From an uncultured beta proteobacterium (GTDB lineage: Bacteria; Pseudomonadota; Gammaproteobacteria; Burkholderiales; Burkholderiaceae_C): DNA of 41,794 nucleotides. Positions 21,340 to 41,155 of the stretch are shown here, piece after piece (within the stretch, counting starts at the first letter, position 1; the number at the start of each line of letters is the position of its first letter). A program made the position numbers and the translations under genes. The stretch is from NCBI GenBank assembly GCA_903845345.1, contig CAIMXF010000292.1, positions 1 through 41,794 on the forward strand, given 5' to 3'. The notes below the pieces were generated by a model, which worked only from the letters and a program-made list of their open reading frames with translations, searched no databases and had not been told where the DNA came from.

Positions 21340-21357
21340 TGGTATTACGACTGGTTC
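21340..21357 (+). promoter_or_regulatory. GntR-type operator-like element (distal, upstream of nag operon)
   Basis: TGGTATTACGACTGGTTC; TGGT-N8-TGGT variant of the motif at 21478. Confidence 0.4.
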
Positions 21358-21460: not shown

Positions 21461-21496
21461 TTGACAGCGGTCCATCATGGTACTATAGTGGTATCA
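21461..21496 (+). promoter_or_regulatory. sigma70-type promoter with overlapping operator, nag operon
   Basis: TTGACA (21461-21466), 17-bp spacer, TATAGT (21484-21489); overlapping TGGTACTATAGTGGTATCA (21478-21496). Confidence 0.8.
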
Positions 21497-21501
21497 CATT
21501 T

Positions 21502-22419
21502 ATGAGCCACACCTGTTATCACCCCGCCTTTGAACAGGCCGACATCCGCTACGCCCTGGGCGTGGACGGGGGCGGCACGGGCACCCGCGTCCGCCTCTGG
21601 ACGAGCAGCGGCGCGTTGGTCGGCCACGGCGAATCCGGCCCGTCGGCGCTCGCGCAAGGCATCGACCAGGCGTGGAAGCACATCGGCCAGGCGGTGGAAC
21701 GCGCGTTCGCGTCGGCCGGACTGTCGACGCCGGTTCCGAACCACTGCGTGCTGGGCCTGGGCCTGGCAGGGGCCGTGGCGCCGCACCTGGCCGCCGCGTT
21801 CTTCCGCGCGGCCCCTGAGTACGCGCTGATCGTGCTGGAGACCGATTCGCGCACCGCGCTGATGGGCGCCCATGCCGGCCGGCCGGGCGCCATCGTCGCC
21901 GTGGGCACCGGCGCGGTCGGCGAGGCGCTGCATGCCGACGGCCGCCGCGTGGCGGTCAGCGGCTGGGGCTTTCCGGTGGGCGACGAAGGTTCGGGCGCCT
22001 GGCTGGGGCTGCGCGCGATGCAGATCGCCCACCGCGCGCTCGACGGCCGCGCCGCTGCCGGCACGCTGGCGCAAGCCGTGTGGCGCCAGGTCAGCGACCG
22101 TCGCGACGCGCTGCTGGAATGGTGCTCCTCGGCGCGCCAGCACGAATACGCTCAACTCGCGCCCCTCGTCTTCGAGTGCGCGGACACCGACGCCGCGGCC
22201 CAGTCGCTGGTGCGGGACATCGGACAGGAAATCGAAGACATGGCGCTCGCGCTCGACCCGGGGCTGCAGCTGCCCATCGTGATTCTCGGCAGCATCGGCC
22301 TGCGCATGGCCGGCCGCCTGCCACCCGCGCTGCGCTCGCGGCTCGTCGAGCCCGCCGGCGATGCGGTCGACGGCGCCCATCGCCTGGTGCGCCAGCAGAT
22401 GAAGGAAGCGGTCGCATGA
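21502..22419 (+). CDS. BadF/BadG-type N-acetylglucosamine kinase-like ATPase
   Basis: ALGVDGGGTGTRVRLWTSSGALVGHGESGPS... phosphate-binding motif; immediately upstream of nagA. Confidence 0.88.
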   Translation: MSHTCYHPAFEQADIRYALGVDGGGTGTRVRLWTSSGALVGHGESGPSALAQGIDQAWKHIGQAVERAFASAGLSTPVPNHCVLGLGLAGAVAPHLAAAFFRAAPEYALIVLETDSRTALMGAHAGRPGAIVAVGTGAVGEALHADGRRVAVSGWGFPVGDEGSGAWLGLRAMQIAHRALDGRAAAGTLAQAVWRQVSDRRDALLEWCSSARQHEYAQLAPLVFECADTDAAAQSLVRDIGQEIEDMALALDPGLQLPIVILGSIGLRMAGRLPPALRSRLVEPAGDAVDGAHRLVRQQMKEAVA

Positions 22420-22514
22420 GCGCCGCCCGCAGGACGGAGAGTTTCCTGATCCGCGCCGCCCGGCCGCCAGCAGTCGCGCGCCTCGCCGTGCGCAGGACGG
22501 AGATTCCCCGATGA
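22416..22514 (+). CDS. putative 32-aa coupling mini-ORF between kinase and nagA
   Basis: ATGA overlap with kinase stop and with nagA start; MSAARRTESFLIRAARPPAVARLAVRRTEIPR. Confidence 0.35.
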   Translation: MSAARRTESFLIRAARPPAVARLAVRRTEIPR

Positions 22515-23644
22515 GCGTTTCCCGCCAGCAGCTGAGCGGCAACGTCCTGACGCCGCAGGGCTTCATCAGCGGCAAGTTGACGATCGTCGATGGCCTCATC
22601 GCCGCCATCGAGGGCCAACCGATCAGCGAAGGCCAGGCGCGGGTGTCGGCCGAACCGCTGATCCTGCCGGGCTTCATCGACCTGCACGTGCACGGCGGCG
22701 GCGGCTTCGACACGATGGAAGGCGGCAGCGCCGTCGCCGAGATCGCGCGCGTGCATGCGCGCCACGGCACCACGTCGATGCTCGCCACCACGATGACGGC
22801 GCCGATGGCCGACATCGGCAAGGCGATGGCCGCGCTGGCCGACGCCTGCCGCACGCATCGCCGCGGCGGCGCGCACGTGATGGGCGTGCACCTGGAAGGT
22901 CCGTACATCAACCCGGGCGCGCTCGGCGCGCAGCCCGATTTCGCGCGGCCCGCGTCGGTCGACGAGGTCAAGGCGCTGCACGCGATCGCCCCGATCCGCC
23001 TGATCACGATGGCGCCCGAGCTGCCCGGCAATCTCGACCTGATCGCGCCGCTGCGCGCGGCCGGCTTCCACGTGCAGATCGGCCACACGGCCGGCACCTA
23101 CGAGGACGGCGTCGCCGCCCTGCAGCGCGGGGCCACCGGCTTCACGCACCTGTTCAACGCGATGAGCAAGTTCCACCATCGCGAACCCGGCATCGCCGGC
23201 GCGGCGCTGGCGCATGCCGAGTTCGCCGAGATCATCCCCGACCTGCTGCACGTGCACCCGGGTGCGATCCGTGCCGCGCTGCGCGCGATCCCCTGCCTGT
23301 ACTGCGTCACCGATTCCACCGCCGCGGCGGGCATGCCCGATGGCGACTACAACCTCGGCAGCCACCGCGTCACCAAGTGCCTGGGCGGCGTGCGCCTGGC
23401 CGACGGCACGCTGGCCGGCAGCACGTTGACGATGGACCAGGCGTTGCGCAATCTCGTCGGCCTGGGCCTGAGCCTGGACGACGCCTCGCGCCGGGTGGCC
23501 ACCAATGCCGCCGACTTCCTCGGCCTGGCCGATCGCGGACGCCTGCTCCTGGGCGCGCGCGCCGACATCGCGGTGCTCGACGCCGATCTGCAACTGACCC
23601 AAGTGATCGTAGAAGGAGATGCCATTGAGCTCACGGATGTTTGA
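22511..23644 (+). CDS. nagA: N-acetylglucosamine-6-phosphate deacetylase
   Basis: LPGFIDLHVHGGGGFDTMEGG, GVHLEGPYINPGALGAQ, TGFTHLFNAMSKFHHREPGIAGAAL. Confidence 0.95.
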   Translation: MSVSRQQLSGNVLTPQGFISGKLTIVDGLIAAIEGQPISEGQARVSAEPLILPGFIDLHVHGGGGFDTMEGGSAVAEIARVHARHGTTSMLATTMTAPMADIGKAMAALADACRTHRRGGAHVMGVHLEGPYINPGALGAQPDFARPASVDEVKALHAIAPIRLITMAPELPGNLDLIAPLRAAGFHVQIGHTAGTYEDGVAALQRGATGFTHLFNAMSKFHHREPGIAGAALAHAEFAEIIPDLLHVHPGAIRAALRAIPCLYCVTDSTAAAGMPDGDYNLGSHRVTKCLGGVRLADGTLAGSTLTMDQALRNLVGLGLSLDDASRRVATNAADFLGLADRGRLLLGARADIAVLDADLQLTQVIVEGDAIELTDV

Positions 23645-24647
23645 CGAAGCGCGCGAAGCCCCGGCGGCCGTGGCTCGTCTGATGGCGGCCGACCTTGCCG
23701 CCTATGTCTCGCTCGGCGAGCAGCTCCGTGCCGATCCGCCGCGATCGGCCCTGACGGTGGCGCGCGGCAGCTCCGATCACGCCGCGCATTACATGGCCTA
23801 CCTCGTGATGGCGCGCCTCGGCCGCCTCGTGACGTCGCTGCCGATGTCGCTGGTCACGCTGTACCAGTCGCAGCTCGATTGCAACGGCCTGGTGTCCTGG
23901 GGCTTCTCGCAATCGGGCCAGAGCCCCGACCTGATCGCGCCGACGCGCTTCTTCCGCGCCGGCGGCGCGCGCACCGTGGCCGTGGTCAACGACGCCGGCT
24001 CGCCGCTGGCCGAGGCCGCGCAGTGGGTGCTGCCGCTGCACGCCGGCGCCGAGACCAGCGTGGCCGCGACCAAGAGCTACATCGCGCAGCTCGTCGCGGG
24101 CGCGCGCATCGTCGCGCACTGGCAGGACGACAAGCCGCTGCTGGCCGCGCTCGAGACGCTGCCGGAAGTGCTGGAGCGCGCCGCGTACGCCGACTGGTCG
24201 CCGCTGGTCGAGGCGCTGGTGCATGCGGACAAGCTGTTCGTGATCGGCCGCGGCACCAGCCTGGCGATCGCGATGGAAGCCGCGCTGAAGTTCAAGGAAG
24301 TCTGCGGCATCCAGGCCGAGGCGTTCTCCGGCGCCGAGGTCAAGCACGGCCCGATGGCGCTGGTCGAGGAAGGCTATCCGCTGCTGATCTTCGCCCCGCG
24401 CGGCCCGGCCCAGGCCGGCCTGCTCGCGCTGGCCGAGGAGATGCGCCGCCGCGGCGCGCGCGTGCTGGTCGCCGCGCCCGTGGGCACGCCGGGCGCCGAG
24501 CTGCCTCTGGTGGCCGCGGGCCACGAGGACCTCGACCCGATCTCGGCGATCCAGAGCTACTACCTGGCCGTCGAAGCCCTCGCGCGTGCGAAGGGGCTCG
24601 ATCCGGACAAGCCGCGTCACCTGAACAAGGTCACGCTGACCCATTGA
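23625..24647 (+). CDS. SIS-domain glucosamine-6-phosphate deaminase (NagB-II-like), TTG start inferred
   Basis: ARGSSDHAAHYMAYL..SQSGQSPDLI..ETSVAATKSYIAQ..IGRGTSLAIAMEAALKFKE; AGGAG 6 nt before TTG at 23625. Confidence 0.88.
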   Translation: MSSRMFDEAREAPAAVARLMAADLAAYVSLGEQLRADPPRSALTVARGSSDHAAHYMAYLVMARLGRLVTSLPMSLVTLYQSQLDCNGLVSWGFSQSGQSPDLIAPTRFFRAGGARTVAVVNDAGSPLAEAAQWVLPLHAGAETSVAATKSYIAQLVAGARIVAHWQDDKPLLAALETLPEVLERAAYADWSPLVEALVHADKLFVIGRGTSLAIAMEAALKFKEVCGIQAEAFSGAEVKHGPMALVEEGYPLLIFAPRGPAQAGLLALAEEMRRRGARVLVAAPVGTPGAELPLVAAGHEDLDPISAIQSYYLAVEALARAKGLDPDKPRHLNKVTLTH

Positions 24648-26176
24648 TGATGAGTGCCGTGCCCGCGTTCCACCCTGGCCATCTCGTCATGGTCGACATC
24701 CCGGGCACCTCGCTCGACCCCGCGACCGCCGAGTTCCTGCGCCGCCATCACGTGCGCGCCATCTGCCTGTTCCGCCGCAACCTCGGCACCGAGGACGAGA
24801 TCCGCAAGCTCACGTCCGACCTGCGCGAGATCATGGGCCCGAGCTGCCTGATCGGCATCGACCAGGAGGGCGGCTCCACCGTCCGCGCGACGTTCCTGCC
24901 GCAGGCCCCCGCCGCGATGGCGCTCGGCGCGATCGACGACGAGGCGCTGTGCGAGGAGGTCGGCGCCACGGTGGCGCGCGGCCTGCGCAGCCTGGGCATC
25001 AACTGGAACTTCGCGCCGGTCCTCGACGTGAACAACAACCCCGGCAACCCGGTGATCGCGGAGCGCAGCTTCGGCGAGGATCCGGATGCCGTCGCGCGCC
25101 TGGCCGGCGCGTGGATGCGCGGCTCGCTGCGCGAAGGCGTGGCCTGCTGCGTGAAGCATTTCCCCGGCCACGGCGACACCGCTACCGACTCGCACCACGC
25201 GCTGCCCGTGGTCGACAAGTCGATCGCCCAGCTCGAGGCGCTCGAGCTGCGCCCGTTCCGCGCGCTGGCCCACGCCCACGGCCACACGCCCGCGGCGCCG
25301 GCGGTGATGACCGCGCACATCGTCTATCCGCAGATCGACCCCAAGCATCCGGCCACGCTGTCGCGCCCGGTGCTCACGGGCCTGCTGCGCGAGAACATCG
25401 GCTACGACGGCGTCGTCATCACCGACGCGCTGATGATGAAGGCCGTCCACGACAGGTACGGCCACGCGCTGGGCGCCGTCATGGCGCTGCAGGCCGGTGC
25501 CGACATGCCGCTCGCACAAGGCAGCCTCGAGGAGCAGGCCGCCGCCATCCGCGCGATCGAGGCCGCGTTGCAGGAAGGCCAGCTGCTGCCTGCCGACGTG
25601 AAGCGTTCCGAGGCGCGCCTGGCCGACCTCGCCGCGCAATACCCGGTCGCGCCGCGCGCGTACGACGCCGCGCAGCGTGCGGCCGACGACGCGCTGATGC
25701 GCGCGGCCTGGGCGCGCGGCCTGACCGCATTCGACGGCGCCGGCAGGAAGGCCGCGCCACCCCCGCTGGCCACGCCGATCCGCGTGGTCACGCAGGACTC
25801 CGTCGCCTGCGACGGCGTGTCCGAGGAAGGTCTGCCGGCCGAACGCGTCGCCGAGCTGTTCGCGGCCTTCGGCGACGTGCAGTTCGTGCGCGTGGGCGAC
25901 CTGCGCGACGTCGACGCCACCACGTTCCCGACCGACGGCCGCTTCAACATCCTCGTGTCCAACCACCGCACGCGCTTCGGCGCGGGCGCGGCGACGGCGC
26001 GTCCGGACCTGCACCTCGCGCTGTGGAATCCGTTCCAGCTGTTCGACATCGCGGCCCCGTCGGTCGTCACCTGGGGCTACGCCGACGGCGCGCTCGAAGC
26101 CGCGCGGGCCTGGCTCGAAGGCCGCGCGCAGGCGATCGCGAAGTCTCCGGTGAAGCTCTCTCCGCGCGCGGCGTGA
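24647..26176 (+). CDS. GH3 beta-N-acetylhexosaminidase (NagZ-like)
   Basis: LIGIDQEGGSTVRATFLPQAP, WNFAPVLDVNNNPGNPVIAERSFGEDP, CCVKHFPGHGDTATDSHHALP, GVVITDALMMKAV; ATGA overlap with upstream gene. Confidence 0.93.
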   Translation: MMSAVPAFHPGHLVMVDIPGTSLDPATAEFLRRHHVRAICLFRRNLGTEDEIRKLTSDLREIMGPSCLIGIDQEGGSTVRATFLPQAPAAMALGAIDDEALCEEVGATVARGLRSLGINWNFAPVLDVNNNPGNPVIAERSFGEDPDAVARLAGAWMRGSLREGVACCVKHFPGHGDTATDSHHALPVVDKSIAQLEALELRPFRALAHAHGHTPAAPAVMTAHIVYPQIDPKHPATLSRPVLTGLLRENIGYDGVVITDALMMKAVHDRYGHALGAVMALQAGADMPLAQGSLEEQAAAIRAIEAALQEGQLLPADVKRSEARLADLAAQYPVAPRAYDAAQRAADDALMRAAWARGLTAFDGAGRKAAPPPLATPIRVVTQDSVACDGVSEEGLPAERVAELFAAFGDVQFVRVGDLRDVDATTFPTDGRFNILVSNHRTRFGAGAATARPDLHLALWNPFQLFDIAAPSVVTWGYADGALEAARAWLEGRAQAIAKSPVKLSPRAA

Positions 26177-26242
26177 GCGCGGGCAGACTGTCTCTCGCCC
26201 GTGTCCTACCGCGCCCCCTCACCGCCAGGAAAGAGACCCCCC

Positions 26243-27580
26243 GTGTCCAGTGAATCCGCCGTGTTGACTTCGCCTTCCGCCGCCGACACGACCGCGGCCT
26301 CCGCACGCCGCTCGCCGCTCACCTGGGTGCCGTCGCTGTACTTCGCGCAGGGCCTGCCGTTCTTCGCGGTGAACCTGATCGCACAGCAGATGTTCGTCAG
26401 CGGCAAGGTGCCCACCGACACCATCACGCACTGGATGGGCATCCTCAGCCTCGCCTGGGGCATCCGCTGGCTGTGGAGCCCGTTCCTCGAGCTCGCGCCG
26501 AGCCAGAAAGGCGTGGTCATCACGTTCCAGTGGCTCGGCTCGCTGGGCCTGGCCGCCGTGGCGTTCGCGACGCACCAGCCGTCGTTCTTCGCGGTCTCCG
26601 TCGCGGCCCTGCTCGCCGTGTCGGTGTTCTCGTCGACGCACGACGTGTCGTCGGACGGCATCTACATGGCGCAGCTGAACAACCGCGAGCAGGCCGAATA
26701 CGCCGGCTGGCAGGGTGCGTTCTTCAACGTCGCGCGCTACGCGTCCGCGGGCGGCCTGCTGATCCTGGCCGGCAACCTCGAGAAGGCGTCCGGCTTCGCC
26801 ACGGCCTGGAGCACGATCTTCGGCATCTGCAGCGTGCTGATGCTCGTGCTGGGCCTGTATCACGTGTGGGCGCTGCCGAAGGCGACCGACGTGCGCACGA
26901 TCAAGCCCACCGCGCAGGACGTCGCGAAGACGCTGTGGCACGTGATCGCCGACTTCCTGAGCAAGCCCGGCGTCTGGCTCGCGATCGTCTTCATCCTGCT
27001 GTTCCGCGCCAGCGAAGGCCAGATCCAGACGATCGGCCCGATCTTCCTGCGCGCCGCCCGCCAGGCCGGCGGCCTGGGCCTGACCACCGATGACGTGGGC
27101 TGGGCCTACGGCACCGCCGGCACGATCGCGTTCATCGTCGGCACGATGGCCGGCGGCTACTTCGCGGCCTGGCTGGGCCTGCGCCGCGCGATGCTGTGGC
27201 TGATCCTCGCGATGAACCTGCCCAGCGTCGCGTTCGTGTTCCTGAGCGTGGCGATGCCCACCAACTTCGCGGTCATCGCTTCCGCACTGAGCCTCGAGAT
27301 GTTCGGCTACGGCTTCGGCTTCGTCGGCGTCATCCTGTACCTGATGCAGGTCGTCGCGCCGGGCAAGTTCCGCACGGCGCACTACTCGATCGGCTCCGGC
27401 GTGATGGGCCTGGGCATGAGCTTCTTCCGCTGGATCAGCGGCGACATCGAGACCGCGCTGGGCTACCGCAACTTCTTCATCTGGGGCCTGCTGTGCGCCG
27501 TTCCCGTGCTGATACTGCTGCGCTTCGTGCCGTTGTCCGCGGCCACGCCGGCCGAGCCGAACCAGCCGATCGAGCCGTGA
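26243..27580 (+). CDS. MFS transporter, AmpG-like
   Basis: LTWVPSLYFAQGLPFFAVNLIAQQMFVSGKVPTDTITHWMGILSLAWGIRWLWSPFLE; 12-TM-type hydropathy; GTG start after AGGAAAGAG. Confidence 0.82.
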   Translation: MSSESAVLTSPSAADTTAASARRSPLTWVPSLYFAQGLPFFAVNLIAQQMFVSGKVPTDTITHWMGILSLAWGIRWLWSPFLELAPSQKGVVITFQWLGSLGLAAVAFATHQPSFFAVSVAALLAVSVFSSTHDVSSDGIYMAQLNNREQAEYAGWQGAFFNVARYASAGGLLILAGNLEKASGFATAWSTIFGICSVLMLVLGLYHVWALPKATDVRTIKPTAQDVAKTLWHVIADFLSKPGVWLAIVFILLFRASEGQIQTIGPIFLRAARQAGGLGLTTDDVGWAYGTAGTIAFIVGTMAGGYFAAWLGLRRAMLWLILAMNLPSVAFVFLSVAMPTNFAVIASALSLEMFGYGFGFVGVILYLMQVVAPGKFRTAHYSIGSGVMGLGMSFFRWISGDIETALGYRNFFIWGLLCAVPVLILLRFVPLSAATPAEPNQPIEP

Positions 27581-30093: not shown

Positions 30094-30834
30094 TCAGGAC
30101 GCGTTGAGTTCGGCGACGAAGTCGTAGGTGTCGCCGCGGTAGATCGACTGCGACAGCTCGATCGCGCGACCGTCGCGCAGGTAGCCCAGGCGCTCGACGA
30201 GCAGGCCGGCGTCGCCGACATCCGCATCGAGCAGGCGTGCCTGTTCCTCGTTGAGCAGCAGCGCGCGCAGGCGCTGCAGCGCGCGCACCGGGCGGTTGCC
30301 GGCGCGCTCGAGGGCGTCGTACAGCGAGTTGTCCACCGCTTCGAGCGACGGCAGCGCCGCCGCCGACAGCGTGGCGTACTCGAGGGCCATTGGCGCATCG
30401 TCGGCGTAGCGCAGGCGATGGAAGCGATAGACCAGGGAGCCCGGGCTCAGCGCGAGCTTCATCGCTTCTTCGGGCGTGACGGTGCCGCTGGAACGCTTGA
30501 TCCATTCGCTGCGCGGCGTGCGTCCGCGGGCGCGCATGTCTTCCGAGAACGACGTGAGCTTGGCGAAATTCTTGTCGATGCGCGTGGAGACGAAGTTGCC
30601 CGAGCCCTGGCGCTGATCGAGGAAGCCCTCGTCGGCGAGGCCCTGGATCGCCTTGCGCACCGTGATGCGCGAGACGCCGAGGTCGGCTGCGAGCTGGCGC
30701 TCGGACGGCAGCGCGTCGTCGGGACCCAGCACCCGCTTTTCGATCGCCTCGCGCAGCGCGCGCTGCAGCTGTTGGTAAAGCGGTTGACTGCCGTCGGGAT
30801 CCAGCGTGTTGAGAAGTTGTGCCAGCGCGCTCAT
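30094..30834 (-). CDS. GntR/HutC family regulator, candidate NagQ/NagR-type amino-sugar repressor
   Basis: PLYQQLQRALREAIEKRVLGPDDALPSERQLAADLGVSRITVRKAIQGLADEGFLDQRQGSGNFV plus UTRA-type C-terminal domain. Confidence 0.9.
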   Translation of the reverse strand: MSALAQLLNTLDPDGSQPLYQQLQRALREAIEKRVLGPDDALPSERQLAADLGVSRITVRKAIQGLADEGFLDQRQGSGNFVSTRIDKNFAKLTSFSEDMRARGRTPRSEWIKRSSGTVTPEEAMKLALSPGSLVYRFHRLRYADDAPMALEYATLSAAALPSLEAVDNSLYDALERAGNRPVRALQRLRALLLNEEQARLLDADVGDAGLLVERLGYLRDGRAIELSQSIYRGDTYDFVAELNAS

Positions 30835-30949: not shown

Positions 30950-31077
30950 AAGGACAGTCGATCGAATCCATCGGACGAACCACGCCGGGCGACATGTTCG
31001 GACCGTGAAATCATGAGGCTTCTGCTCGTAAAACCGGTGTTGCCGAAACGCAATATGAGGGTAAACGCATAGGTCAC

Positions 31078-31107
31078 TGGTCTAGACTGGTTGTACAGTG
31101 GTACTAC
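31078..31107 (+). promoter_or_regulatory. triple half-site operator with embedded -10, upstream of TonB receptor 1
   Basis: TGGTCTAGACTGGTTGTACAGTGGTACTAC; TGGT at 31078, 31088, 31099; TACAGT at 31094-31099. Confidence 0.7.
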
Positions 31108-31229
31108 CTTGTCGCATACCAGGTTTCTAGCCCGAGGGTGCACCGTCTGAGCCCATGGAGAGACGGCACGACCCAACCCCAACCGGCCGCGTTCCCGAAG
31201 AAATGCTGCCACCCGAAAAGAGGAGCCCC

Positions 31230-34025
31230 ATGAAGACGAAACTTACGCCCATTGCCGCCGCCGCTGCGGTTGCGATCGCCGGAGCGATTGCCGCCCCGGC
31301 TTTCGCCCAGACCGCTGCGGCGCCTGCCGCTGCGGCCTCCGCCGCCAAGGCTGACGACGTCCAACGAGTGGAAGTCACGGGCATCCGCGGGTCGCTGCAA
31401 AGCGCGATCAACCAGAAGCGCAACGCCGAATCGCACGTCGAAGTGATCACGGCCGAAGACATCGGCAAGCTGCCGGACAAGAACGTCGCCGACTCGCTCG
31501 CCCGCCTGCCGGGCGTGACGATCAGCTCGTCGAGCGGCACCGAAGGCGGCTTCGACGAAGCCGACCGCGTGTCGATGCGCGGCACGTCGCCGTCGTTCAC
31601 GCAGACCCTGATCAACGGCCACAACATCGCCACCGGCGACTGGTTCGTGCTGGGCCAGACCGGTACCGTCGGCCGCAGCGTGTCGTACACGCTGCTGCCG
31701 TCGGAAGTGGTCAGCAGCGCCGTGGTGCACAAGAGCTCCGAGGCCAGCCTGATCGAAGGCGGCGTGGCGGGCTCGGTGGACATCATCACGCGCAAGCCGC
31801 TTGACTTCAAGAAGCCGTTCTCGCTGTCCGCCAGCGCCGGCGTGGTCTACGCCGAACTGCCGGACAAGCTGGACGGCCAGTACAACGGGCTGGTCAACTG
31901 GAAGAACGACGCGAGCACCTTCGGCGTCCTTGTCCAAGCCTTCTCCGAAACCCGCCACATCCGCCGCGATGGCGTGGAAGTGCTGGGCTTCGACACCATC
32001 CAGGCCAACGATGCATCGGCGAAGGCCAACCTGCCGGGCATTGTCGCCGGCGTGCAGTATCCCGACCTGGTCGGCGAGGCGCTGTTCGAGCAGGAACGCA
32101 AGCGCACCGGCGGCACGTTCGACATCGAACTGAAGCCTAACGATGGCATCACGCTGGACCTGAACGGTTTCCTGTCCGACCAGCAAGCGTCGAACATCAA
32201 CCGCAACTACATGTTCTTCGGCCGCAAGCTCGGCGGCGCCGAAGTGCCGACGAACTACACCGTGTCGAACGGCTACCTCACGTCGGCGTCGTACAGCGAT
32301 TCGGCCGGCATGATGGCCGGCATCTACGACCAGATCTCGCGTCCGGACGCCGCCTCGCATTCGCAGTACCTCGACTTCGACGGCAAGTTCCAGGCGACCG
32401 ACAAGCTGACGTTCAACACGAAGCTGGGCCTGTCGAACGGCTACGGCAAGTCCGGGGCGCAGGACGTCGCCGAGACGGTCGTCGGCGCCACCCAGGCGAG
32501 CTTCAGCCTGAACGGTCCCAACAACGCAGCAGGCTGGTCGACCAATGCGACGTCCACCTCGCAAGGCAGTGTCGGCTTCGGTCCCACGTTCAACACCGAC
32601 AGCGGTGACGGCTGGATCTTCGGCGACGGCCATATCAAGGTCGACGACAGCGAGAAGTGGGCGCAGCTGGACGGCCAGTACGACCTCGAGGCCGGCCCGC
32701 TGGTCGACCTGAAGTTCGGCGCCCGTGCCTCGTCGCACAAGCGCGCGCTGTGGGGCGTGGTCGGCCAGGGCCCGACCGCGGTCAACTGGGGTGCCGCTAA
32801 CTACGCCGCGGCCTGCGGCGGCGCCACCACCGACTTCCGTTGCATCCCGGCCGCTTCGGGCAACTACCCGAGCAACTGGGGCAGCGGCCTGAACGCCAGC
32901 GTTCCGGCGTCCCCATGGACGTTCTCGCCGGCGCAACTGGCGGCCTATGACGCCCAGTACGCCAATCGCGATCCGGGCACTGGTACCGACGATCCGGCCG
33001 GCCGCATGGACTACGGCGCCCAATACGGCGTCGGCGAAAAGACCACCGCTGCCTACCTCCAGGGCGACCTGGAAGGGAAGGATTGGTCCGGCAACGTCGG
33101 CTTGCGTCTGGTCCAAACCAAGGAACACATCCAGGACTATGTCCAGCAAGGGATTCCGGGCGCCAATACGGTCACGTCGGCTTTCGGCACCTTCACGTTG
33201 CAGACGACGGATCACACGTACAACGACCTGCTGCCCAGCCTGAACCTGAAGTACAACCTGAGCAAGGACATGCTTCTCCGCTTCGCCGCGTCGCGCACCA
33301 TGACCCGCGCCGACTACGGTCAACTGGCCGGCTCGGTGTCGCTCAACGCGGTGGACGACGTCAACCTCATCGGCAGCGGCACGGGTGGCAACCCGAACCT
33401 GAAGCCGGTCGTGTCGAACAACTTCGACGCGAGCTGGGAGTACTACTTCGCGCCGGGTTCCCTGGTGACGGCCAGCGTCTTCTACATGGACGTGACCAGC
33501 AACATCGGCCTGGCCCAGAAGCACGAGACCTACAACTACATCGACAACGCCCATCAGACCGGCGTGCCGGTGGACTTCGACCTGACCATTCCGGTCAACG
33601 AGTCGGCCAAGGTGCACGGCCTCGAAGCGAGCTGGGAACAGGCGATCTGGGGCGGCTTCGGCGCGAACGCGAACGGCTCCTTCACCAGCGCGACCACCTC
33701 CAGCGGCCTGCCGATGCTGGGCACGTCCAAGACGGTGTACAACCTGGGCGCGTACTTCGAGAACGACTACCTGAACGCACGCGTGTCCTGGAACCATCGC
33801 TCTTCGTTCTACAGCGGCCTGGATCGCAACAGCGCCTTCGTGCAGGGCGCCGGCGGCGCCCTGGCAGCCTCGATCGGCTGGACGTTCAACAAGCACTTCG
33901 ACATCACCCTCGAAGGCCGCAACCTGAACAAGCCGATCCTGCGCTACTACACGCTGGACAACCAGCCGCGTGCCAGCTACGTCAACGGCGCGCAGTACTA
34001 CCTGACGGCGCACTTCTCGTACTGA
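31230..34025 (+). CDS. TonB-dependent receptor 1
   Basis: MKTKLTPIAAAAAVAIAGAIAAPAFAQ signal; VEVTGIRGSLQSAINQKRNAESHVEVITAEDIGKLPDKNVADSLARLPGV plug; C-terminal YLTAHFSY. Confidence 0.95.
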   Translation: MKTKLTPIAAAAAVAIAGAIAAPAFAQTAAAPAAAASAAKADDVQRVEVTGIRGSLQSAINQKRNAESHVEVITAEDIGKLPDKNVADSLARLPGVTISSSSGTEGGFDEADRVSMRGTSPSFTQTLINGHNIATGDWFVLGQTGTVGRSVSYTLLPSEVVSSAVVHKSSEASLIEGGVAGSVDIITRKPLDFKKPFSLSASAGVVYAELPDKLDGQYNGLVNWKNDASTFGVLVQAFSETRHIRRDGVEVLGFDTIQANDASAKANLPGIVAGVQYPDLVGEALFEQERKRTGGTFDIELKPNDGITLDLNGFLSDQQASNINRNYMFFGRKLGGAEVPTNYTVSNGYLTSASYSDSAGMMAGIYDQISRPDAASHSQYLDFDGKFQATDKLTFNTKLGLSNGYGKSGAQDVAETVVGATQASFSLNGPNNAAGWSTNATSTSQGSVGFGPTFNTDSGDGWIFGDGHIKVDDSEKWAQLDGQYDLEAGPLVDLKFGARASSHKRALWGVVGQGPTAVNWGAANYAAACGGATTDFRCIPAASGNYPSNWGSGLNASVPASPWTFSPAQLAAYDAQYANRDPGTGTDDPAGRMDYGAQYGVGEKTTAAYLQGDLEGKDWSGNVGLRLVQTKEHIQDYVQQGIPGANTVTSAFGTFTLQTTDHTYNDLLPSLNLKYNLSKDMLLRFAASRTMTRADYGQLAGSVSLNAVDDVNLIGSGTGGNPNLKPVVSNNFDASWEYYFAPGSLVTASVFYMDVTSNIGLAQKHETYNYIDNAHQTGVPVDFDLTIPVNESAKVHGLEASWEQAIWGGFGANANGSFTSATTSSGLPMLGTSKTVYNLGAYFENDYLNARVSWNHRSSFYSGLDRNSAFVQGAGGALAASIGWTFNKHFDITLEGRNLNKPILRYYTLDNQPRASYVNGAQYYLTAHFSY

Positions 34026-34082
34026 TCTCGCCGGGAGGCCTGCGCGGGGACGTCCCGCGCGGGGATCTCCGGCGACACGGAA

Positions 34083-34109
34083 GACGACCCCCGGGTCGTC
34101 TTTTTTTTT
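34083..34109 (+). terminator. intrinsic terminator of TonB receptor 1
   Basis: GACGACCC-CC-GGGTCGTC followed by T9. Confidence 0.9.
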
Positions 34110-34198
34110 GCCTGGCGCCGCGGCACCCGCTGCAGGCGCGCGGCTATGCTGGCGCATTCCGCCGAAACGGCCGCCTCGCCTTCGCTTCGAGACATTCG

Positions 34199-35221
34199 AT
34201 GACCGCGTCTCTCCCCTCCCTGCCCGAATGGCAGGGCGTCACCCGGGCCCAGTTCGAGGCCGAGATCCTGCCCCGCAATGCGCCGGCGATCCTGCGCGGG
34301 GTGGCTGGCGACTGGCCGTCCGTCGCGCGCGCGCGGCAATCGGCGCTGGACGTCGCGCGCTACCTGGCCGAGCTGGACAACGGCACGCCCGTCGACGCGC
34401 TGATGCTGGCGCCCGAGGAGAACGGGCGCATCGACTACGACGCCTCGATGGAGGGCTTCAACTACCTGCGCGTGCGGACGCCGGTGAGTCGCGTCGTCGA
34501 GCAGGCCTTGCGCTACGCGCAGTTCGCACGCGCACCCTGCGTCGCGGCGCAGAGCGCGCTGGTGGCCCAGTGCCTGCCGGACTTCAAGACGCACAACGTG
34601 CTGTCGCTGCTGGACGCCGGCGTCGAGCCGCGCATCTGGGTCGGCACGGCCATCATCACGCCGGCCCATTTCGACCAGTCGCACAACATCGCGGTCTGCG
34701 TGGCCGGGCGGCGCCGCTTCACGTTGTTTCCGCCCGAGCAGGTCGCCAACCTGTACGTCGGCCCGCTCGAGCACACGCCTGCCGGCATGCCGATGTCGCT
34801 GGTCGATTTCGCCGAGCCCGACTTCGAGCGCTTCCCGCGCTTTCGCGAGGCCCTGGCCAGCGCGCAGGTGGCCGAGCTCGCGCCGGGCGACGCCATCTAC
34901 ATGCCGCCGCTGTGGTGGCACCACGTGCATTCGCTCGAGCGGTTCAACATCCTGGTGAATTACTGGTGGCACCTGGCCGCCGTCGGCCGCGACGTGCTGC
35001 CGCACGTGCTGGACGCGCTCATGCTCGCGGCCGCTTCGCTGCGCACGTTGCCGCCCGCGCAGCGCGACGCCTGGCGCCACCTGTTCGAGCACTATGCGTT
35101 CGACGCCGAGCGCGACGTTACCGGCCACATCCCTCCCGAACGCCAGGGGCTGCTCGGCCCGACGGGCCCGGCGCAGAACGCGCTGCTGCGCGCAATGCTG
35201 GCCAAGCGGATCACAGGCTGA
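34199..35221 (+). CDS. cupin-like (JmjC/Cupin_8 type) protein
   Basis: WVGTAIITPAHFDQSHNIAVCVAGRRRFTLFPPEQVANLYVGPLEHTPAG..ELAPGDAIYMPPLWWHHVHSL. Confidence 0.88.
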   Translation: MTASLPSLPEWQGVTRAQFEAEILPRNAPAILRGVAGDWPSVARARQSALDVARYLAELDNGTPVDALMLAPEENGRIDYDASMEGFNYLRVRTPVSRVVEQALRYAQFARAPCVAAQSALVAQCLPDFKTHNVLSLLDAGVEPRIWVGTAIITPAHFDQSHNIAVCVAGRRRFTLFPPEQVANLYVGPLEHTPAGMPMSLVDFAEPDFERFPRFREALASAQVAELAPGDAIYMPPLWWHHVHSLERFNILVNYWWHLAAVGRDVLPHVLDALMLAAASLRTLPPAQRDAWRHLFEHYAFDAERDVTGHIPPERQGLLGPTGPAQNALLRAMLAKRITG

Positions 35222-35716
35222 ACGAGCCCGTGCGCGTTGGTGATGCGGCCAACGGCGCCGCCGATGACCGCCGTGCCTCCGCGCCCGGAACCCGCAACGC
35301 GCTCCCCGCGCAGGCCCTATCGACGAGCTCGGCTGCCTGGCGGCATCAGCCCGACCCTGAAGGCGTCGAACGTCGCCGTCGAAGTCGCGGGTGCATCCGC
35401 AACTGAGGATGCGCGGCATGCCGTCGTCGCAAGGGCTGCCGGAATCGTGCCCGCGGCGTCGCGAGATGCCAGCTCCGGCCTGGCATCACCGGACATCCGC
35501 GCGTCATCGGCTTGACCTCCCGGACAGCGCAGGCGGCCTCGGCAAAGCCAGGCACCGTTTCCTGATCGGGGCGCCACATTTCATTCGTTCGACCGCTGCA
35601 TCGAACGCGCTGGGTGAGGATCCGCGTCGCGAACGACGCTGATCGCGCGTCGCCTCCACGTCGAAACTCAGTGAAAACCATCGAACCACTTCAAGTCCTC
35701 TTACGTATCATCCATT

Positions 35717-35735
35717 AAATCAACTCATTTGATTT
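35717..35735. promoter_or_regulatory. palindrome upstream of TonB receptor 2 (candidate operator)
   Basis: AAATCAA-CTCAT-TTGATTT. Confidence 0.45.
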
Positions 35736-35974
35736 GATGGAAGCGATCGAACGGCGCCGCACAACGGCACACGATCGTTGCCGCCGCGGCCACGGCCTTG
35801 GCAGGCGCGTTCGCGCGCTTCCAGGGACTGGCTGCACTCGGGGTGCCAGGTGCTGCCTGGCAACGCCCGTGAACGCGTTTCACGTCGCCTGACAAGCGCA
35901 CGCACCGCAGATTCGACCCGACATCCACCGGCCGTGTTCATCAAGAAATGCTGCCACCCGCAAAGAGGAGCCCC

Positions 35975-38641
35975 ATGAAGACGAAACTCAAACCCGTTGC
36001 CGCCGCCGCGGCGGTCACGCTTGCCGGCGCGGTCTCCGCCCCGGCGTTCGCGCAGTCCGCCGGGGCTCCGGCACCGGCCGCTTCGGCCGCCATGGCCACC
36101 AGGGACGATCCGGTCCAGACGGTCGAGGTCACCGGCATCCGCGCCTCGCTGCAGACCTCCACGAACATCAAGAAGAACGCCAACGCCGTCGTGGACGCGC
36201 TGTCCGCCGAAGACGTCGGCAAGCTGCCCGACTCCGACGTCGGCGAATCGCTGGGCCGCATCCCCGGCGTGTCCGTGGACCGCGAGTTCGGCCAGGGCTC
36301 CTCGGTCTCGATCCGTGGCTCGGATCCGCAGATGACCTACACGACGCTGAACGGCCAGACCGTGGCTTCGACGGGCTGGTACGACCAGAAGTCGGTCGAC
36401 CGTTCGTTCAACTACTCGCTGCTGCCCTCCGAGCTCATCGGTGGCATGGACGTCTACAAGACGCAGCAGGCCGACCTGACCGAAGGCGGCATCGGCGGCA
36501 CCGTGATCGTCAAGACGCGCAAGCCGCTGGACCTCGCGGCCAACACGGCGTTCGTCAGTGCCCGGGTGTCCAAGGGCACGGTCAGCACGGATCCGGACAA
36601 GGACGTCTCGGGCATGTACAGCTGGCGCAGCGAGGACAGGCGCTTCGGCGCGCTGGTCGCGGGCGCCTTCGAGAAGGGCATCTACATCCGCCGCGGCATC
36701 GAGTCGGACACGCGCTGGTCGGGCGACGTCGAGCCGACGACCTTCATCCAGAACCGCCAGCGCAGCGCACTCAACCTGACGCTGCAGGCCAGGCCCGTCG
36801 AGAACCTGGACCTGGGCCTGAACTACCTGAAGCTGGCGTTGACGGGCGACAACTCCAATACCAGCCAGTACCTGTTCCAGACCGCCAGCCCGGACAGCAA
36901 CCCGAACGGCCCGGCGACGCCCTGCGTGATGAACGCCGTCGGCGTCTGCGTGACCAGCAACATCAGCGCCGCCGACGCGACGGACGAGTTCGTGCAGACC
37001 TGGGCCCGCAAGGCCAGGATGACCTCCGACAGCCTGGTGCTGAACGGGTCGTACAAGCTGGACGACTGGAAGCTCGAGGCCGTCGGCGGCACGACCAAGG
37101 CCGATGGCGGTACGTCGGAGACGACGAACTACAGCTACTACGCTGGCGGCCTGCCGCTGTGGGCCGGCCAGATCGACGCCACGGGCAAGGAAATCCACAT
37201 CAGCCCGACGACGAACCAGAACTACACGACCGCCAATCTCCCGTCCACGATCGGCCCGGCAGGATCGTGGGCGACGACGCAGGGACCGAACAGCGACAAG
37301 GAGAACTTCGCCCAACTGGACGCCACCAAGGATCTGGACTGGGCAGGCCTGACGTCGTTCAAGTTCGGCGCCCGCGCCACGAAGCACACCTTCGCGCAGA
37401 ACACGCTGCGCGCCAACTTCGCGGCCACGCCGGTCCTGGCCAACACGGCGAGCCTGTACGACGGCACGATGGACACGGGCACGCCCGGCTGGAGCGCTCC
37501 GAAGCCCGACATCGACGCGATGATGGCCAACACCAACGCGAACATCACGTCGTGGTCCGAAGAGCGGGACGGCTACGGCGTCCTGCAGGAGCGCAACACC
37601 TCCGCCTACGGCATGTTCGAGTTCGAGAAGGACCAGTGGCGCGGCAACTTCGGCCTGCGCTACGTCCACACCCGGGCTTCGGCCACGGGCTACAAGTTCG
37701 ACGGCTCGCCGCTGGCGGCCGGCGACATCGCGCAGAACCAGGGCTGGAGCAGCTCGCTGTCCAGCGACCAGGCCTCGTACGGCTACTTCCTGCCGAGCTT
37801 CAACGCGGCGTTCAACCTCCAGAAGGACACGATCCTTCGCCTGGCCGCTTCGCGCGCCATGACCCGCCCGAACTTCGCCAACATGTTGCAGGCGCAGCAG
37901 TCGGGCTATGAAGACGGCGTCGCGGGCAACGAGACGATGGTCTACGGCAGCCCGGGCCTCAAGCCGATGCTGTCGAACCAGTTCGACCTCAGCCTCGAGC
38001 ACTACTACGGCCGCGGCAACCTGGTGGCGGTGGACTATTTCCACAAGAGCATCAGCAACTTCATCACCACCGTGACGAAGTATGACCAGTCGATCGGCGT
38101 GGTCAGCCCCGACAGCGGCCTGGACAGCTGGACGGTCAGCAACTACGTCAACGCCGGCGGGGGCAAGATCGACGGCCTCGAGGCCCAGGTCAACCACGAC
38201 TTCGACAACGGCTTCGGCGTTGTCGGCAACTACACGTTCTCGCACGCGGTGGCCCCGGCGAGCAGCTACGTGGACGCGGTGCCGGTGTTCACGCAATCCT
38301 CGCGCAACACCGTCAACCTGGCGGGCTACTACGAGACCTCGGTCTACTCGGCGCGCCTGGCCTACAACTGGCGTTCCAAGTACATGCTGCGTGAAGATCC
38401 GTACTGGTATGGCAACCGCTGGCACGATGCCTACGGCACGCTGGACCTGAGCCTGGGCTACAACATCACCCCCAAGATCCGCCTGGGCTTCGACGCGACC
38501 AACCTGCTCAAGCAGAAGGACCTCGAGTACGGCACGAGCGGCACGCCGTCGACGCAAAAGGTGCCCTTGCAGGACGGCTACCCCGCCTGGTCGTTCATGG
38601 GCGAGACGACGTACCGCGTCGGCCTGAGCGCCAAGTTCTGA
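35975..38641 (+). CDS. TonB-dependent receptor 2
   Basis: MKTKLKPVAAAAAVTLAGAVSAPAFAQ; VEVTGIRASLQTSTNIKKNANAVVDALSAEDVGKLPDSDVGESLGRIPGVSVDREFGQGSSVSIRG; C-terminal YRVGLSAKF. Confidence 0.95.
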   Translation: MKTKLKPVAAAAAVTLAGAVSAPAFAQSAGAPAPAASAAMATRDDPVQTVEVTGIRASLQTSTNIKKNANAVVDALSAEDVGKLPDSDVGESLGRIPGVSVDREFGQGSSVSIRGSDPQMTYTTLNGQTVASTGWYDQKSVDRSFNYSLLPSELIGGMDVYKTQQADLTEGGIGGTVIVKTRKPLDLAANTAFVSARVSKGTVSTDPDKDVSGMYSWRSEDRRFGALVAGAFEKGIYIRRGIESDTRWSGDVEPTTFIQNRQRSALNLTLQARPVENLDLGLNYLKLALTGDNSNTSQYLFQTASPDSNPNGPATPCVMNAVGVCVTSNISAADATDEFVQTWARKARMTSDSLVLNGSYKLDDWKLEAVGGTTKADGGTSETTNYSYYAGGLPLWAGQIDATGKEIHISPTTNQNYTTANLPSTIGPAGSWATTQGPNSDKENFAQLDATKDLDWAGLTSFKFGARATKHTFAQNTLRANFAATPVLANTASLYDGTMDTGTPGWSAPKPDIDAMMANTNANITSWSEERDGYGVLQERNTSAYGMFEFEKDQWRGNFGLRYVHTRASATGYKFDGSPLAAGDIAQNQGWSSSLSSDQASYGYFLPSFNAAFNLQKDTILRLAASRAMTRPNFANMLQAQQSGYEDGVAGNETMVYGSPGLKPMLSNQFDLSLEHYYGRGNLVAVDYFHKSISNFITTVTKYDQSIGVVSPDSGLDSWTVSNYVNAGGGKIDGLEAQVNHDFDNGFGVVGNYTFSHAVAPASSYVDAVPVFTQSSRNTVNLAGYYETSVYSARLAYNWRSKYMLREDPYWYGNRWHDAYGTLDLSLGYNITPKIRLGFDATNLLKQKDLEYGTSGTPSTQKVPLQDGYPAWSFMGETTYRVGLSAKF

Positions 38642-38761
38642 GGCGCTGGCGCCCAGCGAAGTGGCCGGCACGAGCACGGCCGCTTCGAACCGCACCCCAT
38701 GCATCGGACGCAAGTCCGGCCGCCGGTGTGTTTTCCCGGGGTACCCGCTAGCATCTCGCCC

Positions 38762-39469
38762 ATGCCCGAGAACCACGCGCTCCGGATGCCGCCCGACATC
38801 CGGTCCCTCAGGATCGGCGACCACCAAGTCGTCGTCATCGACAACTTCCTCGAACATCCCGAAGCGTTGGTCGAATTCGCCGCGGAGGGCCGCTTCGAGC
38901 CCTATCCCGGCATGGCCGAGCGAAAGGGCTATCCGGGCATCCGCGCCCGCGCGCCGGGCGACTACTCGCACAACATCACGGAGCTGCTGGATCCGCTCAT
39001 CAAGGTGAACTTCGGCGTCCCCGAGGTGCTGGCCGTGAAGAAGAGCGCCTGCTATTTCTCGCTGACCACCACGCCCCCCGGGGCGCTCGGGCCGCTCCAG
39101 CGCACGCCGCATTTCGACGCGAGCACGCCGCACCACATGGCTGCGCTGCTCTACCTGTGCAACGACGAGCACGGCGGCACGGGCTTCTATCGTCACAACG
39201 CGACCGGCATGCAGCGCATCACGGCCGAGAACCGCGAGCGCTATCTCGACGTCTACTATGAAGAGATCAATGCGCGCCTCCCGGCGCAGCGCTACTTCGA
39301 TCGCTCGGACGAGCGATTCACGCTGCTCGGCGCGATTGCCGCGCGCTTCAACCGCATGGTGGTCTACCCAGGCAGCCTGCTGCACAGCGCCTGCGTCAAT
39401 CCGGCGCTCAGCCTCTGCGGCGATCCGCGAAAGGGTCGATTGACGGTCAATACGTTCTACGACTTCTGA
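38762..39469 (+). CDS. DUF6445-like protein
   Basis: MPENHALRMPPDIRSLRIGDHQVVVIDNFLEHPEALVEFA...RTPHFDAS..HMAALLYLCNDEHGGTGFYRHNATGM..YPGSLLHSACV; 2OG-oxygenase-like HxD...H spacing. Confidence 0.7.
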   Translation: MPENHALRMPPDIRSLRIGDHQVVVIDNFLEHPEALVEFAAEGRFEPYPGMAERKGYPGIRARAPGDYSHNITELLDPLIKVNFGVPEVLAVKKSACYFSLTTTPPGALGPLQRTPHFDASTPHHMAALLYLCNDEHGGTGFYRHNATGMQRITAENRERYLDVYYEEINARLPAQRYFDRSDERFTLLGAIAARFNRMVVYPGSLLHSACVNPALSLCGDPRKGRLTVNTFYDF

Positions 39470-39565
39470 CGGCCCCGCGCGTGACACGGCAGCTCGCTTG
39501 AGACCAGATGAAAACCCGGCTGCGCAGGTGGGTTGCGGGTTAGTACCGATAACCAGCAAGGCAAC

Positions 39566-39584
39566 TGGTAGTACATTGGTGCCA
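39566..39584 (+). promoter_or_regulatory. operator with embedded -10 upstream of a putative ncRNA
   Basis: TGGTAGTACATTGGTGCCA; TGGT-N7-TGGT; -10-like TACATT 39572-39577; flanking inverted ACCAG (39552-39556)/CTGGT (39565-39569). Confidence 0.65.
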
Positions 39585-39741
39585 TGTCGCACGGAGAGCG
39601 GGTTGGAAGTCCTGAGGGCCCGCTCGCGACATCTGGAACGACGGCGGACGAGTGGGTCCGCCCGCCCGAAGTCGATAGCGGGCGTAGTGCCAGTCCGGTG
39701 GGTGGAGGTGAGCCGCGTCTCTCGGCTCACCTCTTTTTTTT
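39584..39741 (+). ncRNA. putative ~158-nt structured intergenic sRNA, predicted amino-sugar-responsive
   Basis: Predicted start 7 nt after the -10; ATGTCGC/GCGACAT and GAGCGGG/CCCGCTC two-part stem, GGCGGAC/GTCCGCC hairpin, CGCCCG/CGGGCG hairpin, terminator GAGGTGAGCCG-CGTCTCT-CGGCTCACCTC-T8. Confidence 0.65.
39705..39741 (+). terminator. strong intrinsic terminator
   Basis: Perfect 11-bp stem, 7-nt loop, T8. Confidence 0.93.
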
Positions 39742-39754
39742 GCCCGCGACGGCC

Positions 39755-39790
39755 AAAAAAAACCGGCCGGTACCCCGAAGCACCGGCCGG
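39755..39790 (-). terminator. intrinsic terminator of ROK gene
   Basis: On minus strand CCGGCCGGT-GCTTCGGGGT-ACCGGCCGG-T8. Confidence 0.88.
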
Positions 39791-39931
39791 CTCGCAATGT
39801 CCAATCAAGAATTGGACTAGCCCGAAACTAATGCCGCGGTGGCTGGCCCTGCCCCTCGCACGTCGCAGTGCGGCCGTCGGCAACCTCGCCCATCGCGCAG
39901 GGGACAAGCCCTGGCACCATTGCGGCCGCCG

Positions 39932-41155
39932 TCACGGGTTGTCCGCCTTCAGCAGCACGCCGAGATTGGGATTGAGCTCGTCGAAGATCGGCAGCGCCGC
40001 GGCCCCGAGGGCCGCCGTGTCGTGACCCGCCAGCCCCGCGATCACCCGCGGGGTCTGGCGGTTGCGGCGTGCGGCGACGGAGGTGTGCAGCGGCTCGAGC
40101 CGCTCGATCAGCAAGGCCAGCACCGACGCCGGCAGGAAGCCGCCGATGACCACGGCCTCGGCATCGAGCATCGATTCGAGGATGTTGACCGCCTGGCGCA
40201 GCCGCTGCGCGGCCTCGTCGAGCCAGCCGTCCAGGCGCGCGCGCGCCGCGGGGCTCGGGTCGAGCAGCATCTGCGGCGTGGCGTGCGCCAGGTCGCCGAT
40301 CTCCAGCGCCTCGTAGGCGGCCTGCAGCGACACGTAGCGCTCCAGGCAGCCGCGGTTGCCGCACGGGCACTGCCGGCCCTCCGGCACCACGATCATGTGG
40401 CCGATCTCGCCCGCGTTGTGGCCCGAGCCCTTGTACAGGTGGCCGTCGTGGAACATGCCGGCGCCCAGGCCGGTGCCGATGAACAGGTAGGTGAAGCTGC
40501 GGAACGTGCGCGCCACGCCGTGCAGGCGCTCGCCGATGGCGGCGGCGGTGGCGTCGTTCTCCATGATCACCGGCAGGCCGATGGCGCCGCCGATCTGCTG
40601 CGCGATCGACAGGTCCTGCCAGCCCGGCAGGGCGGTCGGGCCGACGGCGCTCAGTCCTTCGACGTCGAACGGCCCCGGCACCGCCAGGCCGAGCCCGAGC
40701 ACGCGGCTCCAGTCGGCGTCCGACGACCTGCGCAGCGTCTCGACGACGTCGCGCACCAGCGGCATCGCCTGCGCGGGCGTCGGGTGATCCACGGCCAGCG
40801 TGCAGCGGCCGCGGATCCTGCCGGACAGGTCGACCACCACCGCCACCATCATGTTCTGGTCGATCTGCAGGCCGATCGAGTAGGCGCCGTCCGGGTTGAT
40901 CACGAACGGCGTGGCCGGCTGGCCGCGCGTCCCGCGCTCGGGCGTCAACGCGTTCAGGAAGCCGAGCTTCTGCAGCTCGCTCGCGATGTTGGAAATGGTC
41001 TGCGGCGTCAGCGCGGTCAGGCGCGCGATGTCGGCACGGGTCAGCCGTCCGTGCAGGCGGATGGCCTCCATCACGACGCGCCGGTTGTGGGAACGGGCGA
41101 ATTCGAGATTGGTGCCGGACAGGCTGGCGACGTTGGGCTTGTTCACCGGGGACAT
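39932..41155 (-). CDS. ROK family transcriptional regulator
   Basis: N-terminal HTH (RRVVMEAIRLHGRLTRADIARLTALTPQTISNIASELQKLG) and ROK domain with CPCGNRGCLE zinc motif. Confidence 0.93.
   Translation of the reverse strand: MSPVNKPNVASLSGTNLEFARSHNRRVVMEAIRLHGRLTRADIARLTALTPQTISNIASELQKLGFLNALTPERGTRGQPATPFVINPDGAYSIGLQIDQNMMVAVVVDLSGRIRGRCTLAVDHPTPAQAMPLVRDVVETLRRSSDADWSRVLGLGLAVPGPFDVEGLSAVGPTALPGWQDLSIAQQIGGAIGLPVIMENDATAAAIGERLHGVARTFRSFTYLFIGTGLGAGMFHDGHLYKGSGHNAGEIGHMIVVPEGRQCPCGNRGCLERYVSLQAAYEALEIGDLAHATPQMLLDPSPAARARLDGWLDEAAQRLRQAVNILESMLDAEAVVIGGFLPASVLALLIERLEPLHTSVAARRNRQTPRVIAGLAGHDTAALGAAALPIFDELNPNLGVLLKADNP

Follow-up and report, generated by a model that had tools for sequence, protein, structure and literature searches.

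We propose a conserved RNA gene of ~158 nt, absent from earlier listings, in a soil betaproteobacterium; it lies between two gene clusters in the 41,794-nucleotide stretch of DNA that was analysed (the window). Comparison with relatives provides strong evidence for this gene: it is found as a single locus in four of four Scleromatobacter genomes, three compensatory base pairs are consistent with its predicted fold, and its promoter appears to carry an operator of the chitin/GlcNAc regulon. On balance, we favour the reading that it encodes a trans-acting sRNA of this regulon, repressed by NagQ and induced by GlcNAc or chitin.

Structure and conservation of the RNA gene

The RNA is predicted to span positions 39584..39741 (+ strand), its start being placed from the -10 box. 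At its 5' end, stem P1 (ATGTCGC/GCGACAT, 39584-39590 with 39626-39632) is separated by the bulge ACGGA (39591-39595) from stem P2 (GAGCGGG/CCCGCTC, 39596-39602 with 39619-39625), and the P1/P2 stem (39584..39632) ends in a 16-nt loop. The hairpins P4 (39643-39662) and P5 (39663-39684) are enclosed by the closing helix P3 (39633-39640 with 39686-39693; whole element 39633..39693), which has two mismatched positions in the window and is a perfect 8 bp in Scleromatobacter humisilvae (G003) and in G002. A linker (39694..39704), invariant in the four species and a candidate pairing or protein site, leads into an 11-bp intrinsic terminator (39705-39733) that ends in T8 (39705..39741). The terminator of the opposing ROK transcript follows on the - strand (39760..39793) and is kept in G002 and G003; in all, three terminators were found against 0.3 expected. 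Every pairing of the original prediction is thus present, as are the two successive terminators that it described. The convergent setting that it gave applies to the RNA and the ROK-family gene; relative to the DUF6445 gene on its other side, the RNA lies in tandem.

Fold energy provides only modest evidence for the RNA. The whole RNA has z = -2.6, and without the terminator the values range from -0.7 to -2.0 across the four species. Because the antisense strand does equally well or better, fold energy was dropped as the main argument. In G001, the minimum-energy fold is slightly unlike the consensus (-76.7 vs -75.4).

The relatives compared were S. humisilvae and two metagenome assemblies, and each of the four genomes holds one copy of the RNA beside the same ROK gene. 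The two matches in G001 overlap and both lie at contig ends; they are probably one split locus. Among the four genomes, identity is 90-95% for the RNA and 88-95% when the whole matched stretch, promoter included, is counted. At paired positions, 97.8% of pair cells are kept, while shifting the structure by 1-3 columns as a control leaves 36-43% and no compensatory pair. The P1/P2 stem keeps every pair in the four species, with three wobble changes, and of the three compensatory pairs two lie in the P3 closing helix and one in P5. Of 500 shuffles, 8 match or exceed the covariation score, and 59 have at least as many compensatory pairs. The compensatory changes sought in relatives are therefore present, but since only four sequences are available the covariation is suggestive of the structure.

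The pace and pattern of substitution also bear on what the locus is. If it were what is left of a vanished NagQ-controlled gene, untranscribed or decayed, whose structured DNA had survived by chance, the ordinary fold energy seen once the terminator is removed would fit. However, the RNA has diverged between species by 5.1-9.5%, much more slowly than the ROK gene next to it at its four-fold sites (22-27%), and with the compensatory changes and a terminator intact in four species such a remnant is very hard to credit. A leaderless or dual-function mRNA was also considered, in which the frame from the ATG at 39584 would encode a peptide of ~50 residues or longer. This ATG sits at the predicted start and its frame is open to the terminator in all four species; but at this G+C open frames are frequent, this one continues through the terminator, and pairwise codon changes comprise 5-10 nonsynonymous vs 1-4 synonymous, with differences spread over the codon positions. 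The predominance of nonsynonymous changes therefore points to constraint on the RNA; the protein-coding reading was rejected on this pattern, and an mRNA is improbable.

Outside the genus, no RNA was found at the model threshold in 297 other genomes of the family or in the remaining genomes of a 399-genome sample of the order, and the plasmids and phages searched hold no copy. Nor did the window match any Rfam family at gathering or permissive settings, an outcome of the check named in the original prediction; the best chance scores, 13-19 bits, are far below the cut-offs. When named genomes were scanned for a pattern based on the loop, the genus relatives and three other records came up. The only one of the three with a model match, L013 (21.5 bits), has most of one stem disrupted and reads NEWVKKAEVDSG in one frame, and is probably a chance match in coding sequence; the other two have no model match. 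Around the NagQ orthologs of seven other genera, the best model matches (E 0.01 and weaker) are not convincing, and the best of them, in L109, is a terminator behind a receptor gene. No homologous RNA was found at these NagQ loci, though their nag and receptor sites are kept. By sequence, the RNA appears to form a new sRNA family; as a regulator, it would be of a known kind.

A shared operator and the NagQ regulon

The putative promoter of the RNA contains the NagQ-type operator TGGTAGTACATTGGT (39566..39580, + strand), with tandem TGGT repeats at an 11-bp period, invariant in the four species. A predicted -10 box, TACATT (39572..39577), lies inside it. As originally described, no protein gene lies downstream of this operator/promoter element (39566-39580), and its -35 is weak, with no sigma-70 consensus found; the nag promoter, in contrast, has a full TTGACA at 17-bp spacing. 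In G003, a further repeat precedes the RNA operator site. The upstream CACCAATNACCAG might instead pair with the operator as a hairpin in RNA; this idea was set aside, since the upstream arm is variable and the operator is not, which makes a DNA site likelier.

The likely cognate regulator is encoded in the window on the - strand (30094..30834). It is a GntR/HutC-type protein with GntR (Pfam, 8.5e-18) and UTRA (7.8e-38) domains, probably NagQ; its identity is 99% inside the genus and 77-84% in seven other genera. NagQ is a GntR regulator of alpha- and beta-proteobacteria for which published work gives tandem-repeat sites and control of nag and chitin genes (PMC5343134). The gene adjoins nagK-nagA-nagB-II and a receptor gene, an arrangement common to other genera. 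Operators precede both the nag operon nagK-nagA-nagB-II-GH3-MFS (operator 21478..21492, + strand; operon 21502-27580) and the TonB receptor gene (operator 31088..31102, + strand; gene 31155-34025). The same nag operon and receptor carry near-identical sites in other genera, e.g., TGGTAGTACAGTGGT before the TonB receptor, one base from the site of the RNA. In G124, a strong site standing alone lies before a gene for a TPR-like protein; it was not retained.

The exact pattern TGGTNNTAYANTGGT occurs at three sites each in G000, G002 and G003, namely at the nag operon, the TonB receptor and the RNA, and at four in G001, where the extra one lies at a chitinase gene; a reversed-pattern control gave no matches. 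In each genus genome the pattern is thus confined to regulon loci, which bears out the proposal of an sRNA gene under an operator common to the nag operon and the TonB receptor. As these same sites gave rise to the pattern, the RNA site has to be judged with a matrix that leaves it out. Trained only on the sites at nag, receptor and chitinase, such a matrix gives the RNA site a score of 16.5, the third highest in the window behind two training sites, with the next best at 8.9; one of 2000 shuffles of the intergenic region matches this score.

A scan allowing one mismatch widened the regulon further. Tandem NagQ-type sites (TGGATATATAG/TGGTACTAAAG/TGGT) precede a GH18-like chitinase gene, whose domain was read from the translation in G003 (sites at G003:C18:8657-8682, L048 and L052; G000:C469:10096-10121; G001:C463:5721-5746). 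This gene, far from the cluster in the window, would be a fourth regulon member. At all four promoters, tandem repeats are found and the -10 box takes the same register within the operator, i.e., TATAGT (nag), TACAGT (receptor), TATAGT (chitinase) and TACATT (RNA). NagQ is predicted to bind these operators and to be released by an amino-sugar phosphate.

Other details of the regulon were observed. A further TGGT pair, TGGTATTACGACTGGT, with spacing one base longer, lies ~140 bp upstream of the nag operator (21340-21355). The receptor promoter (31077-31108) carries ACTGGTCTAGACTGGTTGTACAGTGGT beside the tandem repeats, an element that we take to resemble the dre site of DasR/NagR. Some other genera (L113, L114, L116, L117) have a further GntR/UTRA-type gene inserted between nagK and nagA, with 43-47% identity to NagQ.

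Neighbouring genes and independence of the unit

Downstream, the ROK-family gene (39932..41155, - strand; Pfam ROK, 7.9e-40) is a constant neighbour, its product being 96-98% identical in the three relatives. Upstream, the neighbour differs: it is the DUF6445 gene in the window, a TonB receptor gene in G002 and G003, and a cupin-like gene in G001. An RNA derived from the 3' UTR of the upstream receptor or DUF6445 transcript, with no promoter of its own, would agree with the weak -35 and with the same-strand gene that precedes the RNA in the genomes examined. However, the sequence preceding the operator region is unalignable between species, while the RNA and the operator with its embedded -10 box are kept. 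Because the upstream gene changes and the RNA and operator stay, a read-through origin is weakened, and we regard it as improbable too. An independent sRNA gene, to be recognised by its own promoter, an intrinsic terminator and the lack of a conserved ORF, is the reading that these features suggest, promoter and start being predicted from sequence.

The region between NagQ and ROK is itself variable. Receptor, cupin_8 and DUF6445 genes turn over strongly (window 31155-39469; L009, L010, L011, L058), and the TonB receptors are 28-77% identical across species between the near-constant NagQ and ROK. In G001, ~440 bp of extra sequence (L012, about 140-580), absent in the other three species, separates the RNA terminator from the ROK terminator.

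Proposed action and relation to known systems

In the mechanism that we propose, NagQ would occupy the tandem TGGT repeats that overlie the -10 box when amino sugar is absent and so block transcription of the RNA. An amino-sugar phosphate would release it, and the ~158-nt noncoding RNA would then be made alongside the nag operon, the TonB receptor and the GH18-like chitinase, its transcript ending at its own terminator. The RNA would most likely pair with mRNAs in trans, probably with Hfq, through the nearly invariant 16-nt loop (UUGNAAGUCCUGAGGG) and/or the linker (GUCCGGUGGGUGG), and may thereby tune mRNAs outside or inside the chitin programme. Two attributes of an Hfq-type sRNA, an hfq gene in the genome (1.9e-28) and a U-rich terminator tail (T8), are present; a T8 terminator fits Hfq binding. 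Local target prediction gave a best z of -2.2 among 56 tests, not significant against shuffles, and the gene with this score is absent at that place in the relatives. Within the genus, neither loop nor linker has a conserved perfect complement of 11-12 nt.

The lack of a conserved perfect complement also suits the main rival, in which the NagQ-controlled RNA acts by binding a protein or another RNA, as a decoy or sponge in the way that GlmY titrates RapZ, instead of pairing with mRNA. Its compact, highly paired shape with an invariant bulge CGGA and loops would be in line with sequestration. Against it, there is no repeated binding motif, few GGA are unpaired and one of them (TTGGAA) is not conserved, and Rfam shows no similarity to known decoys. 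We consider sequestration unlikely, though the least unlikely of the alternatives, and retain trans-acting pairing as the preferred reading.

Among characterised systems, GlmY/GlmZ, the precedent originally offered, proved a poor one, and DasR-controlled scr5239 (PMC7025569) and ChiX (PMC4098024) are closer. GlmY/GlmZ are sRNAs of amino-sugar metabolism that control glmS, with GlmY acting on RapZ (PMC4098024), but their promoters differ from that of the candidate RNA. ChiX (MicM/RybC) of enterobacteria is tied to the uptake of chitin sugars, a theme that the candidate RNA shares; however, ChiX represses chiP when inducer is absent, and chb mRNA titrates it, whereas the candidate is predicted to be induced with its regulon (PMC4098024). 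Thus ChiX and GlmY/GlmZ have the metabolic theme in common with the RNA and not the logic, and there is no Rfam match. The NagQ regulon of Proteobacteria combines a GntR regulator, a tandem-repeat operator and nag and chitin genes, as here; in the available part of its published description it lists protein genes, and Scleromatobacter would add a predicted sRNA (PMC5343134).

The nearest functional parallel, likened by description and not by sequence, appears to be scr5239 of Streptomyces coelicolor, a noncoding RNA of 159 nt with several stem-loops (PMC7025569), comparable with the ~158-nt, multi-stem candidate. It is encoded near the GlcNAc-responsive, GntR/HutC-type DasR, which represses it through a promoter site (PMC7025569). 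In contrast to the candidate, scr5239 is actinobacterial; its known targets are dagA, metE and pepck, the last of which it represses (PMC7025569). By analogy, the candidate would behave as a GntR/HutC-controlled metabolic sRNA; membership of a known Rfam family is not supported. We give an even chance to the idea that this new family serves the NagQ chitin regulon of Proteobacteria as an RNA arm and arose independently of actinobacterial DasR-scr5239. If true, GntR/HutC amino-sugar repressors recruited a multi-stem sRNA of ~160 nt at least twice, suggesting a recurrent design in which an amino-sugar repressor controls enzymes and an sRNA alike. The locus provides a defined, testable predicted sRNA in the chitin/GlcNAc response of Burkholderiales, and its restriction to one genus would make it a clear example of an older regulon that has gained a young regulatory RNA.
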